Part shown: positions 1,778-13,442 of the stretch, one piece after another | Layout of the letters: the number at the start of each line of letters is the position of its first letter | How positions within the stretch are numbered: position 1 is the first letter of the stretch | From: Balneolales bacterium | GTDB lineage: Bacteria > Bacteroidota > Rhodothermia > Balneolales > Natronogracilivirgulaceae | Reading direction: 5' to 3' | DNA: 13,608 nt | NCBI GenBank assembly: GCA_007127695.1 | Contig: SKYW01000310.1 | Location: 1-13,608 of the forward strand | Position numbers and translations under genes: made by a program | Notes under the pieces: model-generated | The model's input: the letters and a program-made list of their open reading frames with translations, nothing else | Database searches by the model: none | What the model was told of the DNA's origin: nothing

Positions 1778-1788
1778 GGTATTTCTGA

Positions 1789-1798
1789 TTGTTAACAA
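1789..1798. promoter_or_regulatory. 10-bp palindrome TTGTTAACAA in the dtd leader
   Basis: TTGTTAACAA reads the same on both strands and ends 12 bases before the dtd start codon. Its AACAAGT half (1794-1800) pairs with ACTTGTT at 1822-1828, so a larger hairpin enclosing a DnaA-like site (1802-1810) is possible. It may be an operator for dtd or part of the origin-like region. Function is inferred from symmetry only. Confidence 0.3.
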
Positions 1799-2004
1799 GT
1801 ATGGGGATAACCGTGCACGAAACTTGTTGATTCGTATACGGGTCATTTTTTATGTGCGGAAGATAACCAATTATTCACTGTTACATGCGGGATTCCCACA
1901 CCATAAGGGCTCTGCGGGAAGTGTGGGTTACAAGAATGTGCTGAAATGTATGATTCATGTGATACGTGGATATTCTGATGAAAATCTTTTAAAAGGCTAC
2001 TCCC

Positions 2005-2024
2005 TGTGGATGTTGTTATCCACA
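2005..2024. promoter_or_regulatory. Inverted pair of DnaA boxes
   Basis: TGTGGAT (2005-2011) and ATCCACA (2018-2024) form a perfect 7-bp inverted repeat with a six-base centre. The right arm belongs to a perfect DnaA box TTATCCACA on the + strand (2016-2024). The left arm is the core of a 7/9 box on the - strand. It would suit a DnaA pair at an origin. Confidence 0.55.
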
Positions 2025-2075
2025 TTTATTTCAACAATGGTGGAGATGCCAATTTGAATAAAACGGAAAACTTTC

Positions 2076-2084
2076 TTTTCCACA
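2076..2084 (+). promoter_or_regulatory. DnaA box TTTTCCACA left of the AT-rich core
   Basis: It fits the relaxed consensus TTWTNCACA. TTTTCC is also the right arm of a perfect small hairpin with GGAAAA at 2065-2070 (five-base loop). The same nonamer recurs inverted at 2148-2156 across the AT-rich core. Confidence 0.5.
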
Positions 2085-2097
2085 TATCAACAGCCTC

Positions 2098-2131
2098 TAT
2101 ATATGATTACAAATTTATATAAAAATTAATT
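2098..2131. other. Extremely AT-rich segment, possible DNA unwinding element
   Basis: Only two of 34 bases are G or C (G2105, C2110), in a window whose genes are about 54% G+C. It lies between the two inverted TTTTCCACA boxes, as an origin unwinding element would. An AT-rich UP-type promoter element for purM is the alternative. Confidence 0.45.
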
Positions 2132-2147
2132 ACTCATAGAAAACCCG

Positions 2148-2156
2148 TGTGGAAAA
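2148..2156 (-). promoter_or_regulatory. DnaA box TTTTCCACA (minus strand) right of the AT-rich core
   Basis: TGTGGAAAA on the + strand is the reverse complement of the box at 2076-2084, and the two face each other across 63 bases. It runs into an A-rich tract (2153-2161). Confidence 0.5.
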
Positions 2157-2218
2157 AAAAAGAAAGGACTTCTTGGTTTTGTTTCCTTTTGTTCCAAACT
2201 TTCTTGCGTCCTGTTACC

Positions 2219-2240
2219 GTTCCCGGACAGAATCCGGAAC
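2219..2240 (+). promoter_or_regulatory. Hairpin/inverted repeat in the purM leader
   Basis: GTTCCcGGA (2219-2227) pairs with TCCGGAAC (2233-2240) over eight base pairs with one bulged C and a five-base loop. It ends 43 bases before the purM ATG and has no U-tract after it, so it is not a standard terminator. It could be an operator (for example for purine control) or an mRNA structure. No known purine riboswitch was recognised. Confidence 0.35.
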
Positions 2241-2283
2241 AAGATGCCATTTCCCGAATCATCCCTAATATTTTCAGTTAATT

Positions 2284-3414
2284 ATGTCCAAGAAACATAC
2301 GTACAAGTCTGCCGGAGTGGATGTGGATGCCGGAAACCGTTTTGTGAAATCCATAGGCGACCTGGTTGCCAGAACGCACCGGCCGGAGGTCGTGACTTCC
2401 ATTGGTGGTTTCGGTGGTCTTTTCCAGCCGGATTTTTCCTCCATGAAGCAGCCGGTCCTGGTAAGCAGCGTGGATGGTGTCGGGACAAAGCTGATCATAG
2501 CGTTCAGGACTGGGGTGTATCACACCATTGGACAGTGCCTGGTAAACCACTGCGTCAATGACATCGCTGTCTGCGGGGCAGAGCCGCTTTTTTTCCTGGA
2601 CTATTTTTCGACCGGAAAACTGGAACAGGAGGTGGCCTACAATGTCCTGAAAGGGTTCACTATCGCCTGCGAGGAAAACGGCTGTGTACTTATTGGCGGT
2701 GAAACCGCGGAGATGCCGGATATCTACGGCGAAGGTGAATTTGACCTGGCCGGAACGGTGGTGGGTGTGGTGGACCGGGATCAAATCCTGGATGGATCCG
2801 GTATTCAGAACGGGGACATTATCCTTGGTGTGACGGGAAACGGATTGCATACCAACGGTTATTCACTGGCACGCAAGGTTTTGCTATCGAAGTACAGTGT
2901 TGATCAGCACGTATCGGAACTTGGAATGACGATTGGAGAGGCCCTGCTGCAGATCCACCCGTCCTATCTGCAGGTGATAAGAAAACTAAAAAAAATAGAG
3001 GGGATCCGTGGCTTTGCCCACATAACGGGTGGGGGTATTGTGGGTAACACGGAGCGGATCGTGCCAAAAGGAAAGGCCTTGAAAGGAAACGCCCCGAAAG
3101 AAAAAAATGCGGATGGGAAGAACGTGGATGAGAAAATGACTGGGAAAAAGGGTCCGGAGGAAATAAAAGCAGATGAAAAGACTCCTGAGGGACTGATTCC
3201 GGTCATTGACTGGGACAGCTGGGAGTGGCCGGCCATTTTTGAATTGATCCGGAAGGAAGGTGATGTTCCGGTTGAGGATATGAGGCAGGCATTCAATCTT
3301 GGTATCGGGCTGACGGTCGTTGTTTCACCCGAAAGAGCCGATTCCGTGCTGAACACGGAGATACAAGCCGGATTCCGTATCCTCCCGATAGGAGAGGTCA
3401 AAACCAGCCGATAA
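2284..3414 (+). CDS. purM: Phosphoribosylformylglycinamidine cyclo-ligase (AIR synthetase)
   Basis: PurM closes the imidazole ring in step five of purine synthesis: FGAM + ATP gives AIR + ADP + Pi. The 376-residue product shows the family motifs in order: YKSAGVDVDAGN (7-18), GVGTKL (65-70), VND (91-93), GGETAEMP (138-145), GNGLHTNGYSL (185-195), AHITGGGIVGN (245-255) and WDSWEWP (310-316). The usual length is about 330-350 residues. The excess is a Lys/Glu-rich low-complexity insert at about residues 262-303, between the VP after GGGIVGN and the conserved D-SWEWP, which few other PurM proteins should share. The ATG is preceded by AT-rich sequence without a Shine-Dalgarno. It is divergent from dtd across the candidate origin. 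The TAA stop lies inside the end of the convergent peptidase gene, a 17-base overlap. Confidence 0.95.
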   Translation: MSKKHTYKSAGVDVDAGNRFVKSIGDLVARTHRPEVVTSIGGFGGLFQPDFSSMKQPVLVSSVDGVGTKLIIAFRTGVYHTIGQCLVNHCVNDIAVCGAEPLFFLDYFSTGKLEQEVAYNVLKGFTIACEENGCVLIGGETAEMPDIYGEGEFDLAGTVVGVVDRDQILDGSGIQNGDIILGVTGNGLHTNGYSLARKVLLSKYSVDQHVSELGMTIGEALLQIHPSYLQVIRKLKKIEGIRGFAHITGGGIVGNTERIVPKGKALKGNAPKEKNADGKNVDEKMTGKKGPEEIKADEKTPEGLIPVIDWDSWEWPAIFELIRKEGDVPVEDMRQAFNLGIGLTVVVSPERADSVLNTEIQAGFRILPIGEVKTSR

Positions 3415-10511: not shown

Positions 10512-13442
10512 ATGAATAACACATTTTGCGGTTCACGCATTTCCATCCTGATGTACAAAATATCACCGTTGTTTTCACTGTTATTGCTTGTCACAATCAT
10601 GGCGGGTTCACCCCTGCCAGCCCTGGGGTCCACTACAGGGTCTATTCCGGGATCCATTCCGGGATCCACTCCGGCATTCGGTCCTTCTCCCGGGACCCCG
10701 GACAATCCATTGGTTGAACCCATCCAAAAGGAATCCCGTGAACCGTTTTTTGCATCCACCCCGAAATCCGTGACGTCCGGGGATCTCTGGACGCTTCTTT
10801 TGCCGGATGGAACGGCACTGCCGCGGCCCGATTCGTTCCGGAGCGATATCGCCACCCCGGCAGAGGTGCTCGGCTTTGAACCGGGCGAGTGGCACGTCCG
10901 TCACGACCAGGTCGTGGCCTACATGTACCGCCTGGCCAGGGAGTCGGACCGCGTCCACATACAGGAATACGGACGGACATGGCAGCGCCGGCCGCTGCTT
11001 TTGCTCACGATTTCACACCCGGACAATCTTGCCTCCATCGATTCCCTCCGGGCCGACCATCTGGCCCTGAGCGACCCGTCACAGTCGACGGATCTCGACC
11101 TGAGCCAAATGCCCGTCGTAACCTGGCTGGGCTACTCGGTACACGGAAACGAGTCCAGCGGGGCCAATGCCGCCGTGCTCGTTGCCTATTATCTTGCGGC
11201 GGCCGAAGGGGAGGATATAGAACTGCTTCTGCAGGAGTCTGTTGTGTTGCTGGACCCGACCTACAACCCGGACGGGCTCGACCGATTTGCGACATGGGTG
11301 AACAACAACCGCTCATTCACACCTTCCGGCGACCCCTACCACCGCGAACACCGCCAGCCCTGGCCCGGATCCCGGACCAACCACTACTGGTTCGACCTGA
11401 ACCGGGACTGGATGCCGGTCCAGCACCCCGAAAGCCGCAGCCGGGTACGCACCTTCCAGTCATGGAAGCCAAACGTGCTCACCGACCACCATGAAATGGG
11501 CCCGCAGGCAACCTATTTTTTCCAGCCGGGAGTGCCCTCCCGCGACAATCCGCTCACGCCGCAGCGCACGTTTGAGCTGACCGCCAAACTGGCGGAGTAC
11601 CACGCGGACTATCTGGACGAAGTGGATCAGCTTTACTGGACCAGCGAATTTTTTGACGATTTCTTCATTGGAAAAGGTTCCACCTATCCGGATCTGCAGG
11701 GCACGGTTGGCATCCTGTTTGAACAAGCCAGCTCCCGCGGACATCTGCAGGAAAGCCAACACGGAGACGTCGCCTTTCCGGTTACCATCCGCAATCAGTT
11801 CCTGACCTCGCTTTCGACGCTGTACGGCGCCAGGGATCTTCGCCTTGAACTCCTCGGACACATGAGGGAATCTGCTTCAAGCGCCATGGAGGATGCCCGA
11901 AGCAATCCGGTGAAAGCGTGGGTTTTCGGGGATCTGTTCGACCGGGCGCGGAACGCCCACCTGTTGGACCTGCTGTCGCATCATGACATTCGCATCCACG
12001 AACTGGAGGGTTCTCTTTCCGCGGACGGAGACCGTTTCGAGAGCGGCAGCGCATGGATCATACCGGCCGAACAGCCGCAATACCGGCTGATCCGCAGCTT
12101 GTTTGAGACCCGCAAGGAATTCCAGGACAGCGTGTTTTATGACATTTCCACCTGGACCCTGCCTCTGGCATTCGATATACCGTATGCGGAGCTGGATCGC
12201 CGTAGCTACAGTGAAAACCTTCTGGGAGCAGCCGTCTCCGACACGCCTTTCCCCGAAGGCCGGTTCCGGTCCGGCCAGAATGCGCACGCAATTTCTGAAA
12301 CCCAACCTGATAACACCCAACCTGCAAACACCCAACCTGATAACACCTCACCTGCAAACACCCCATCTGCAAACACCCAACCTGCAAATCAGCTCCGTCC
12401 ATACGCCTATCTGTTCGAATGGCATGAATATTATGCACCGCGTGCGGCATACCGCCTGATGGATGCCGGCGTACGTATCAAGGTCGCAACGCAGCCATTC
12501 AAGGCAGTAACAGATGAAGGGTCGCATGAATTCGACTATGGCACCATCCTTGTGAGTGCGGGCATTCAGGACCGGGTGGATGCGGATGCGCTCCGGGAGC
12601 TGATGATGGAGGTGGCAAAGGAGGACGGGCTGGATGTGCACATGGCAAGCTCCGGCCTGACGGTCCGCGGAATGGATTTGGGAAGTCCGTCCTTCCAGAT
12701 GCTTGAAAAACCCGGGGTCATGGTCGTCACGGGTGACGGGATCAACATGTATGAGGCCGGCGAAGTGTGGCACCTTCTGGACCAGCGATACCGGATGCCG
12801 GTTACCATGGCCGATGTCAGATATCTGAACAGCGTCGACCTGGACCGGTACAATACCGTGGTCATGGTGCACGGCAATTATCAGCGGCTGTCCGGGACAT
12901 TCCTGGACCGCCTGAAGCAGTGGGTCGAAGCAGGCAATACCCTGATATTGCAAAAAGGCGCTGTTTCCTGGATGGCCGGACTTGGCTGGTTGGACTTTGA
13001 AATGCAAAAAACCGAGTATTCCACCTCCGGAAATAAGGAACTCCGGTACCGGGATCTGGCATCCCTGCGTGGTTCGCGGGCCATTGGCGGGGTGATCATG
13101 GAGGCGGAGCTGGACCGGACACATCCGCTTGGTTATGGTTTCAAGCGCGACAAACTGCCGGTCTTCAGGAACAGCACCCTGTTCCTTGAGTATCCGGAAA
13201 ATCGGTTTGCGGTACCGGTGCGATACACCGCCGAGCCGCTGTTGAGCGGTTTTGTATCCACCGAAAATCGGGAATGGCTGTCGCAAAGCCCGGTTTACCT
13301 GGTGGCGCGTATGGGTTCGGGGCGGGTAATCATGACAACGGACAATCCGAATTTCCGCGCCTTCTGGTTCGGCACGAACCGGCTGTTTGCCAACGGCCTG
13401 TTTTTCGGTCGCATCATCCATCAGAATGCAACCATACGCTGA
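10512..13442 (+). CDS. Secreted M14-family zinc carboxypeptidase with C-terminal amidotransferase-like domain
   Basis: This 976-residue exported metallopeptidase has a hydrophobic signal segment (about 15-39) and then a short Gly/Ser/Pro repeat (43-54). The M14 domain carries zinc ligands H211 and E214 in HGNESSG, a third histidine at H326 or H327 in TDHHEMG, the substrate-binding DLNRDW (295-300) with NPDG at 252-255, and the catalytic glutamate E404 in ILFEQASSRG. A perfectly periodic Thr/Gln/Pro/Ala/Asn repeat (597-626) then precedes a region that resembles class-I glutamine-amidotransferase-like folds (about 730-980). That assignment is by style (VMVVTGDG, VVMVHGNY, WVEAGNTLIL), with no catalytic Cys identified. 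It probably trims peptides or peptidoglycan-like substrates outside the cytoplasm. The ATG at 10512 is the longest start; Met14 (10551) also gives a good signal peptide. No Shine-Dalgarno is present. Confidence 0.88.
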   Translation: MNNTFCGSRISILMYKISPLFSLLLLVTIMAGSPLPALGSTTGSIPGSIPGSTPAFGPSPGTPDNPLVEPIQKESREPFFASTPKSVTSGDLWTLLLPDGTALPRPDSFRSDIATPAEVLGFEPGEWHVRHDQVVAYMYRLARESDRVHIQEYGRTWQRRPLLLLTISHPDNLASIDSLRADHLALSDPSQSTDLDLSQMPVVTWLGYSVHGNESSGANAAVLVAYYLAAAEGEDIELLLQESVVLLDPTYNPDGLDRFATWVNNNRSFTPSGDPYHREHRQPWPGSRTNHYWFDLNRDWMPVQHPESRSRVRTFQSWKPNVLTDHHEMGPQATYFFQPGVPSRDNPLTPQRTFELTAKLAEYHADYLDEVDQLYWTSEFFDDFFIGKGSTYPDLQGTVGILFEQASSRGHLQESQHGDVAFPVTIRNQFLTSLSTLYGARDLRLELLGHMRESASSAMEDARSNPVKAWVFGDLFDRARNAHLLDLLSHHDIRIHELEGSLSADGDRFESGSAWIIPAEQPQYRLIRSLFETRKEFQDSVFYDISTWTLPLAFDIPYAELDRRSYSENLLGAAVSDTPFPEGRFRSGQNAHAISETQPDNTQPANTQPDNTSPANTPSANTQPANQLRPYAYLFEWHEYYAPRAAYRLMDAGVRIKVATQPFKAVTDEGSHEFDYGTILVSAGIQDRVDADALRELMMEVAKEDGLDVHMASSGLTVRGMDLGSPSFQMLEKPGVMVVTGDGINMYEAGEVWHLLDQRYRMPVTMADVRYLNSVDLDRYNTVVMVHGNYQRLSGTFLDRLKQWVEAGNTLILQKGAVSWMAGLGWLDFEMQKTEYSTSGNKELRYRDLASLRGSRAIGGVIMEAELDRTHPLGYGFKRDKLPVFRNSTLFLEYPENRFAVPVRYTAEPLLSGFVSTENREWLSQSPVYLVARMGSGRVIMTTDNPNFRAFWFGTNRLFANGLFFGRIIHQNATIR
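10638..10673 (+). repeat. Three in-frame 12-bp repeats encoding GSIP/GSIP/GSTP
   Basis: Three consecutive 12-base units around GGATCCATTCCG code for G43-P54 of the M14 peptidase, directly after its signal peptide. A change of unit number would keep the frame. It is probably a flexible linker. Confidence 0.75.
12300..12389 (+). repeat. Six in-frame 15-bp tandem repeats in the M14 peptidase gene
   Basis: Six adjacent units of the form ACCCAACCTGNNAAY (units 4 and 5 are variants) encode TQPDN, TQPAN, TQPDN, TSPAN, TPSAN and TQPAN, residues 597-626. They sit between the peptidase half and the C-terminal half of the protein. Because the unit is five codons, gain or loss of copies preserves the frame. 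It is probably an expandable linker. Confidence 0.9.

Follow-up and report, generated by a model that had tools for sequence, protein, structure and literature searches.

The window, by which we mean the whole 13,608-nucleotide stretch of DNA analysed here, is contig C57 of a Balneolales bacterium assembly that comprises 313 contigs and 2.03 Mb and is 73.6% complete. It carries dtd and purM in divergent orientation, and the gap between the two genes, which must contain the promoters of both, is the region proposed as the replication origin (Table 1). To the left of dtd, Pfam searches assigned an adenylate kinase that is cut at the window start and a metalloenzyme-superfamily protein. The best matches of PurM in named genomes came from Balneolia, Balneolales or Balneolaceae in five of six cases, and the top match was a 'Bacteroidetes bacterium'; a 16S search in the window's assembly ended without a match, and a plasmid search with PurM made no contribution. 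PurM of the window gave a full-length match of 376 aa as a single piece only in G012 and G005, and in most other close relatives the match fell into two pieces with residues ~264–300 skipped. A Lys/Glu-rich insertion in PurM (window 3070–3190) is seemingly common to the window genome, G012 and G005. Elsewhere in the window, a 15/30-bp tandem repeat (12300–12388) lies within an M14-peptidase-like gene and encodes a Thr/Gln/Pro/Asn-rich repeat.

Table 1. Genes and sequence features of the dtd–purM locus, in window coordinates.
Feature	Position	Strand	Remarks
dtd (D-Tyr-tRNA deacylase), left neighbour	1337–1777	−	Pfam PF02580, E = 3.3e-60; start at 1777
Proposed oriC, whole dtd–purM intergenic region	1778–2283		506 bp; GC 0.37
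Distal variant DnaA box TTATCCCCA	1802–1810	−	1 mismatch to TTATCCACA; 9/9 columns invariant in ten family genomes
Consensus DnaA box TTATCCACA	2016–2024	+	TTWTNCACA match
Core DnaA box 1 TTTTCCACA	2076–2084	+	Tandem pair, left of AT-rich element; 6/9 columns invariant in ten family genomes
Core DnaA box 2 ATATCAACA	2084–2092	+	One-base overlap with box 1; 2 mismatches
CTA (3′-GAT-5′ on the minus strand), first DnaA-trio-like triplet	2097–2099	+	4 nt past the tandem boxes
AT-rich stretch, candidate DNA unwinding element	2099–2132		2 G/C in 34
Inverted core DnaA box TTTTCCACA	2148–2156	−	72 bp from box 1; 8/9 columns invariant in ten family genomes
Conserved purine-rich run and T-rich block	2157–2205		Beside the inverted box; conserved in the family
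purM (AIR synthase), right neighbour	2284–3414	+	Pfam PF00586 and PF02769; start at 2284

DnaA boxes and AT-rich element of the gap

The word TTWTNCACA occurred three times in the 13.6-kb window, each time inside the dtd–purM gap. When the gap was shuffled 5000 times with dinucleotides preserved, TTWTCCACA, present three times in the gap, had a mean of 0.034 and never reached three, and boxes with at most one mismatch, of which the gap holds four, had a mean of 0.22, with none of the shuffles matching the observed count. The facing TTTTCCACA boxes at 2076 and 2148 bracket an AT-rich 34-mer, which ties with the overlapping 2098–2131 as the most AT-rich of the window. The earlier note had described one perfect box and two inverted boxes flanking a 34-base stretch with two G/C in this gap, and this description was confirmed position by position. 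Its 'perfect inverted box pair' at 2005–2024 held as a short perfect palindrome (TGTGGAT/ATCCACA) but not as a pair of boxes, since the would-be box in its left half (ACATCCACA, 2005–2013) has two mismatches, and none of its nine columns is invariant in ten family genomes. It had also counted three or four weaker boxes. Beyond the three TTWTNCACA words, the sole box of the gap with at most one mismatch is TTATCCCCA at 1802–1810, which that note did not name and which is the best-conserved box of the gap; the further ones have at least two mismatches, and of those checked the box at 2084–2092 is conserved and the one at 2005–2013 is not.

The second core box, at 2084–2092, has only one mismatch in 10 of 13 family cores, where it reads ATATCCACA, and seven of the eight columns from 2085 to 2092 are invariant in ten family genomes. 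Within the purine-rich run and the T-rich block, ten family genomes agree at 5 of the 10 columns of 2157–2166 and at 16 of the 28 columns of 2172–2199. A scan for promoter-like sites returned two, compared to 1.7 in shuffles, and hence no excess, and a scan for terminator-like sites returned two where 0.5 were expected, namely the palindrome at 2005–2024 and 1828–1845. An Rfam search of 1500–2600 at a relaxed threshold gave three snoRNA-family matches, which were set aside as chance because their scores lay well under gathering.

Conservation of the core in Balneolales

We compared 38 regions upstream of purM, made up of 14 from this family, 21 retrieved as best matches in a search of the class and three from complete genomes. 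At 11 of the 14 family loci (window included), the start of dtd lies upstream of purM on the opposite strand, and the gap measures 488–515 bp. Among the family loci without a dtd start, L012 is cut by a contig end 238 bp upstream, L015 has just 562 bp of upstream DNA covered, in which the dtd motif was not found, and L014 (G003) has another gene than dtd upstream of purM. Within the genus, the distances from the boxes to purM are almost constant. The consensus box TTATCCACA stands at −268 from purM in six of the eight genomes examined, the seventh has TTATCAACA at −267, and the eighth has no box with ≤1 mismatch there.

Two overlapping tandem boxes and a facing box form a core, which was found in 36 of the 38 regions and in 16 genera. 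The check suggested earlier, conservation of the boxes between dtd and purM in relatives, thus spoke for the origin. The facing box lies 69–74 bp from the tandem boxes in all 36 cores, a spacing to be read with the fact that this box was part of the core search criterion and was allowed 68–75 bp. In the two other genomes, G003 (C75) and G110 (C168), there was no core at purM and no match to the strict pattern defined below in the genome; in both, a gene other than dtd adjoins purM. That the cluster is a chance gathering of DnaA-box-like words in AT-rich DNA could draw on the 56 occurrences of TTWTCCACA in the 2.03-Mb assembly, but with a box count that none of the 5000 shuffles reached, base-level conservation in ten family genomes and a core shared by 16 genera, we regard the probability of this explanation as practically negligible.

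The core is also confined to this place in the DNA that was sampled. In five genomes, searched over 80 stretches of 20 kb (1.6 Mb, or 3.2 million strand-bases), it was found at five places, one per genome and each at the dtd–purM gap. A strict pattern, consisting of the tandem boxes, 4 nt and CTA with at most one mismatch, was searched in 128 genomes of the order and gave 90 matches: 60 lay ≤0.9 kb upstream of purM on the purM strand, 22 lay elsewhere and 8 were in genomes for which no purM position is listed. Exact matches were at purM in 21 of 22 cases. The reversed control pattern had 27 matches in the same 128 genomes, about as many as the scattered strict ones. Counted by genome, 99 members of the order have a listed purM, and the strict pattern stood beside it in 60 and was missing there in 39. 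The looser core was sought in seven of the 39: G007, G078, G101, G103 and G106 have it, and G003 and G110 do not.

At some loci, another reading frame stands between the core and purM. An extra frame of ~170–190 codons lies there at L090 783–1298 (G022 955,783–956,298), and the same arrangement was seen at L185 2405–2986 (CP051242.1, which matches G058). Where this frame separates the two, the core has remained with dtd, and it is purM that is displaced. In several other genomes of the second family, dtd lies ~1 kb from purM.

The triplet CTA occupies the position 4 nt past the tandem boxes in 33 of the 36 cores, window included, and in 14 of the 16 genera. It is found again at +7 in 19 cores and at +10 in 11, that is, as the following triplets, and at other offsets up to +33 its highest count was 8, at +14. 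Runs of two or three CTA are present in 17 of the 36 order cores, and the genus of the window has CTA at the first triplet only. We also applied the published DnaA-trio rule (at least three NAN trios). The longest run in the window is one, and across the 36 cores 10 passed compared to 10.5 expected from shuffling; the rule was therefore dropped as evidence, given the lack of enrichment over shuffles. A reading of the conserved plus-strand adenines as trios was dropped as well, since the assignment in B. subtilis puts the trios on the other strand.

GC skew at the gap and at dnaA

The earlier note had named a GC-skew minimum at the gap as a check. The window's own contig has only 1.8 kb to the left of the gap, with a skew of 0.004, and its cumulative minimum falls at base 41; to the right of the gap, the skew is mostly positive to ~8.75 kb and mostly negative from there to ~12.5 kb. 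Because the assembly is in 313 contigs, the skew curve of the genome itself is unreadable, and we turned to relatives. In G011 (same genus, 40 kb), the cumulative minimum is at 32,981 and the best changepoint at 32,898, with the purM start at 32,953; the first 20 kb have a skew of −0.081 and the second 20 kb one of +0.028, and none of 5000 block permutations did as well. In two genomes of the same family, each over 200 kb, the minimum lies at 386,393 with the purM start at 386,423 (G017) and at 135,961 with the purM start at 135,991 (G002), again with 0 of 5000 permutations in each. In all three genomes, the minimum or the best changepoint is thus no more than ~60 bp away from where purM starts.

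Three complete genomes were available for a wider view. In G022 (same order), the local minimum, 955,882, is flanked by dtd and purM (permutation 4/5000) and is near the boxes at 955,634–955,713. The skew is negative in each of the eight stretches up to 955 kb and positive in the next; onward to 2.5 Mb all are positive except the stretch at 1.204 Mb, and the stretch with dnaA (1.285–1.305 Mb) is among the positive ones. A two-replichore fit to 20 stretches placed the origin at 950–960 kb, with an R2 of 0.86 compared to 0.66 when it was forced at dnaA. In G058, the local minimum, 320,372, again falls in the interval from dtd to purM, close to the core at ~320.2 kb, and the local changepoint was not significant (permutation 535/5000). 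The gene-corrected GC3 fit of this genome gave 270–330 kb (R2 0.86, compared to 0.70 at dnaA), and raw GC alone gave 120–190 kb (R2 0.66, compared to 0.65 at the gap). In G097, the raw GC fit of 200–410 kb agrees with the gap (R2 0.46), the gene-corrected fit gave 3.42–3.81 Mb (R2 0.51, compared to 0.29 at purM and 0.20 at dnaA) and the local changepoint was not significant (permutation 1169/5000). A skew switch from minus to plus at the gap is thus clear in four genomes and consistent in a fifth, and G097 is noisy. The skew minimum that the earlier note had named is clear in the relatives G011, G017, G002 and G022, and G058 points the same way without reaching significance in the local test.

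In many bacteria the origin lies upstream of dnaA, and if this applied here the boxes between dtd and purM would be secondary. The dnaA gene of the window's genome is on another contig (C32 of G000), not adjacent to the gap, and in the three complete relatives it is ~346, 447 and 270 kb from the gap. In favour of this reading, three TTWTCCACA stand within 106 bp upstream of dnaA on C32 (L001 ~875–980), and boxes of the same orientation near −152 and −55 from dnaA are present at all 20 order loci examined, 18 of which have another near −316. The array stands at L001 and also at L032–L042, L044, L045 and L068–L074; 24 dnaA loci were looked at, and L043 and L046 (dnaA truncated at a contig end), L078, L079 and L081 were left out. 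The skew argues the other way. In G022 the dnaA stretch and those that follow are positive, in G058 dnaA lies ~447 kb from the gap within the negative half, and forcing the origin to dnaA lowered the fit in G022, G058 and G097. In addition, the core was absent from the dnaA-containing stretches of these three genomes in the core scan, and none of the five core matches was at dnaA. We therefore consider an origin at dnaA very unlikely. The dnaA box array probably serves the control of dnaA, a reading based on the absence of the core there and on the uniform sign of the skew around dnaA in G022 and G058; it may also be what is left of an older origin, or a partner to one.

DnaA boxes can also regulate transcription, and the gap, lying between divergent genes, must hold their promoters and has conserved blocks besides the boxes; it might thus be a DnaA-controlled promoter or a datA-like DnaA titration site, and not an origin. 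Such a site, however, predicts neither a skew switch at the gap, as seen in four genomes and less surely in a fifth, nor an AT-rich element set between inverted boxes whose spacing hardly varies. Moreover, the core persists where another reading frame stands before purM, in G022 and in the record matching G058. On these grounds a promoter or titration site alone appears highly improbable. The gap combines a box cluster beyond chance, an adjacent AT-rich element, a skew minimum in relatives and a conserved neighbourhood, and the computed support further includes the conserved geometry of the core and its single occurrence per genome in the sampled DNA. Taken together, we predict from sequence that the dtd–purM gap is, with high probability, the oriC at which this Balneolales bacterium starts to replicate its chromosome, as the earlier note had proposed, a proposal that the skew switch in relatives and the conserved boxes and gene order support.

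Proposed initiation and known origins

From the layout of the core, we infer where DnaA would bind, where and in which direction the DNA would melt and where helicases would be loaded. DnaA would bind the tandem boxes at 2076–2092, and further DnaA would be recruited at 2016–2024 and at the distal box at 1802–1810. A DnaA oligomer may then extend over the adjacent strand, with 3′-GAT-5′ (CTA at 2097–2099 on the plus strand) as its first triplet, and melt the AT-rich stretch at 2099–2132, whose far side would be bounded by the inverted box at 2148–2156. Helicases would be loaded, and two forks would depart, one towards dtd and one towards purM. The facing box may have a role in melting or in two-way helicase loading.

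The dtd–purM address looks specific to Balneolales, since the ~4 kb upstream of purM in 19 genomes of the class from outside this order contained single scattered boxes but no box cluster and, by motif search, no dtd; a 20th stretch of the class, which lies at dnaA of G127, was left out. Two complete genomes of other orders were also inspected for skew. In G112 the switch falls at 906–940 kb, with dnaA at 885 kb and purM at 1.63 Mb, and in G131 at 2.42–2.50 Mb, with dnaA at 2.32 Mb and purM at 4.45 Mb. The switch is ~20–55 kb (G112) and 95–175 kb (G131) from dnaA, nearer to dnaA than to purM and not at dnaA itself.

For many Balneolales, the gap provides a precise origin address, also in fragmented metagenome assemblies where skew fails; the signs to look for ahead of purM are dtd, the tandem pair of boxes, CTA and the facing box. 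Correct origins are needed for coverage-based growth-rate estimates and wherever gene order or strand bias is studied. In addition, the DnaA-trio-like CTA runs differ in length from genome to genome at this one homologous origin, a natural series on the number of trios that DnaA needs.

The core can be compared with the basal unwinding system of B. subtilis, which consists of DnaA-box 6/7 and DnaA-trios at oriC (according to the available portions of PMC6669920, PMC8287927 and PMC10201434). In these portions, DnaA on two boxes extends onto the trios (PMC8287927, PMC6669920), the B. subtilis top strand is CTACTATTACTTCTACTA with the trio strand as its complement (PMC10201434), the gap from box to trio is 4 bp on average, and the rule asks for at least three NAN trios that start within 16 nt of a box (both PMC8287927). 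As far as the system is set out in these texts, the Balneolales core resembles it in having tandem boxes at the unwinding region, followed by a 4-nt gap and by CTA running into AT-rich DNA, with 3′-GAT-5′ at a fixed distance. It differs in that the Balneolales origin is not next to dnaA and, with regard to the published rule as given there, in that the genus of the window has the first CTA only and not three NAN trios. A further feature of the Balneolales core is a facing box that closes its far side at near-fixed spacing. By analogy, the dtd–purM core would work like the Bacillus system in outline, and the site in the window does not count as a strict member of it, its run of trios being shorter than the rule describes. 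A fuller reading is offered tentatively, as possible and on balance rather doubtful: an order-specific dtd–purM origin would use a variant module of the Bacillus type, in which only the box-proximal trio is fixed and the facing box at 69–74 bp closes the AT-rich element, perhaps for two-way helicase loading, and the dnaA array would serve self-control only.

The evidence used here, namely the skew minimum, DnaA boxes, indicator genes and the DnaA-trio, is shared with the predictions of DoriC and Ori-Finder 2022, as far as the available text of PMC10225481 describes them. As an origin address, dtd–purM was not found in that text or in the literature searched, a statement that concerns the text and not the entries of DoriC; the papers listed by the literature searches likewise included no description of an origin beside purM or in Balneolales, and the word oriC is absent from PMC7029141. 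Like the oriC of Escherichia coli, as described in the part of PMC6669920 at hand, the dtd–purM gap joins a DnaA-box cluster to an AT-rich element and is unlinked to dnaA, and unlike it, the gap is flanked by dtd and purM. Origins unlinked to dnaA are a known kind, and the dtd–purM address is lineage-specific.
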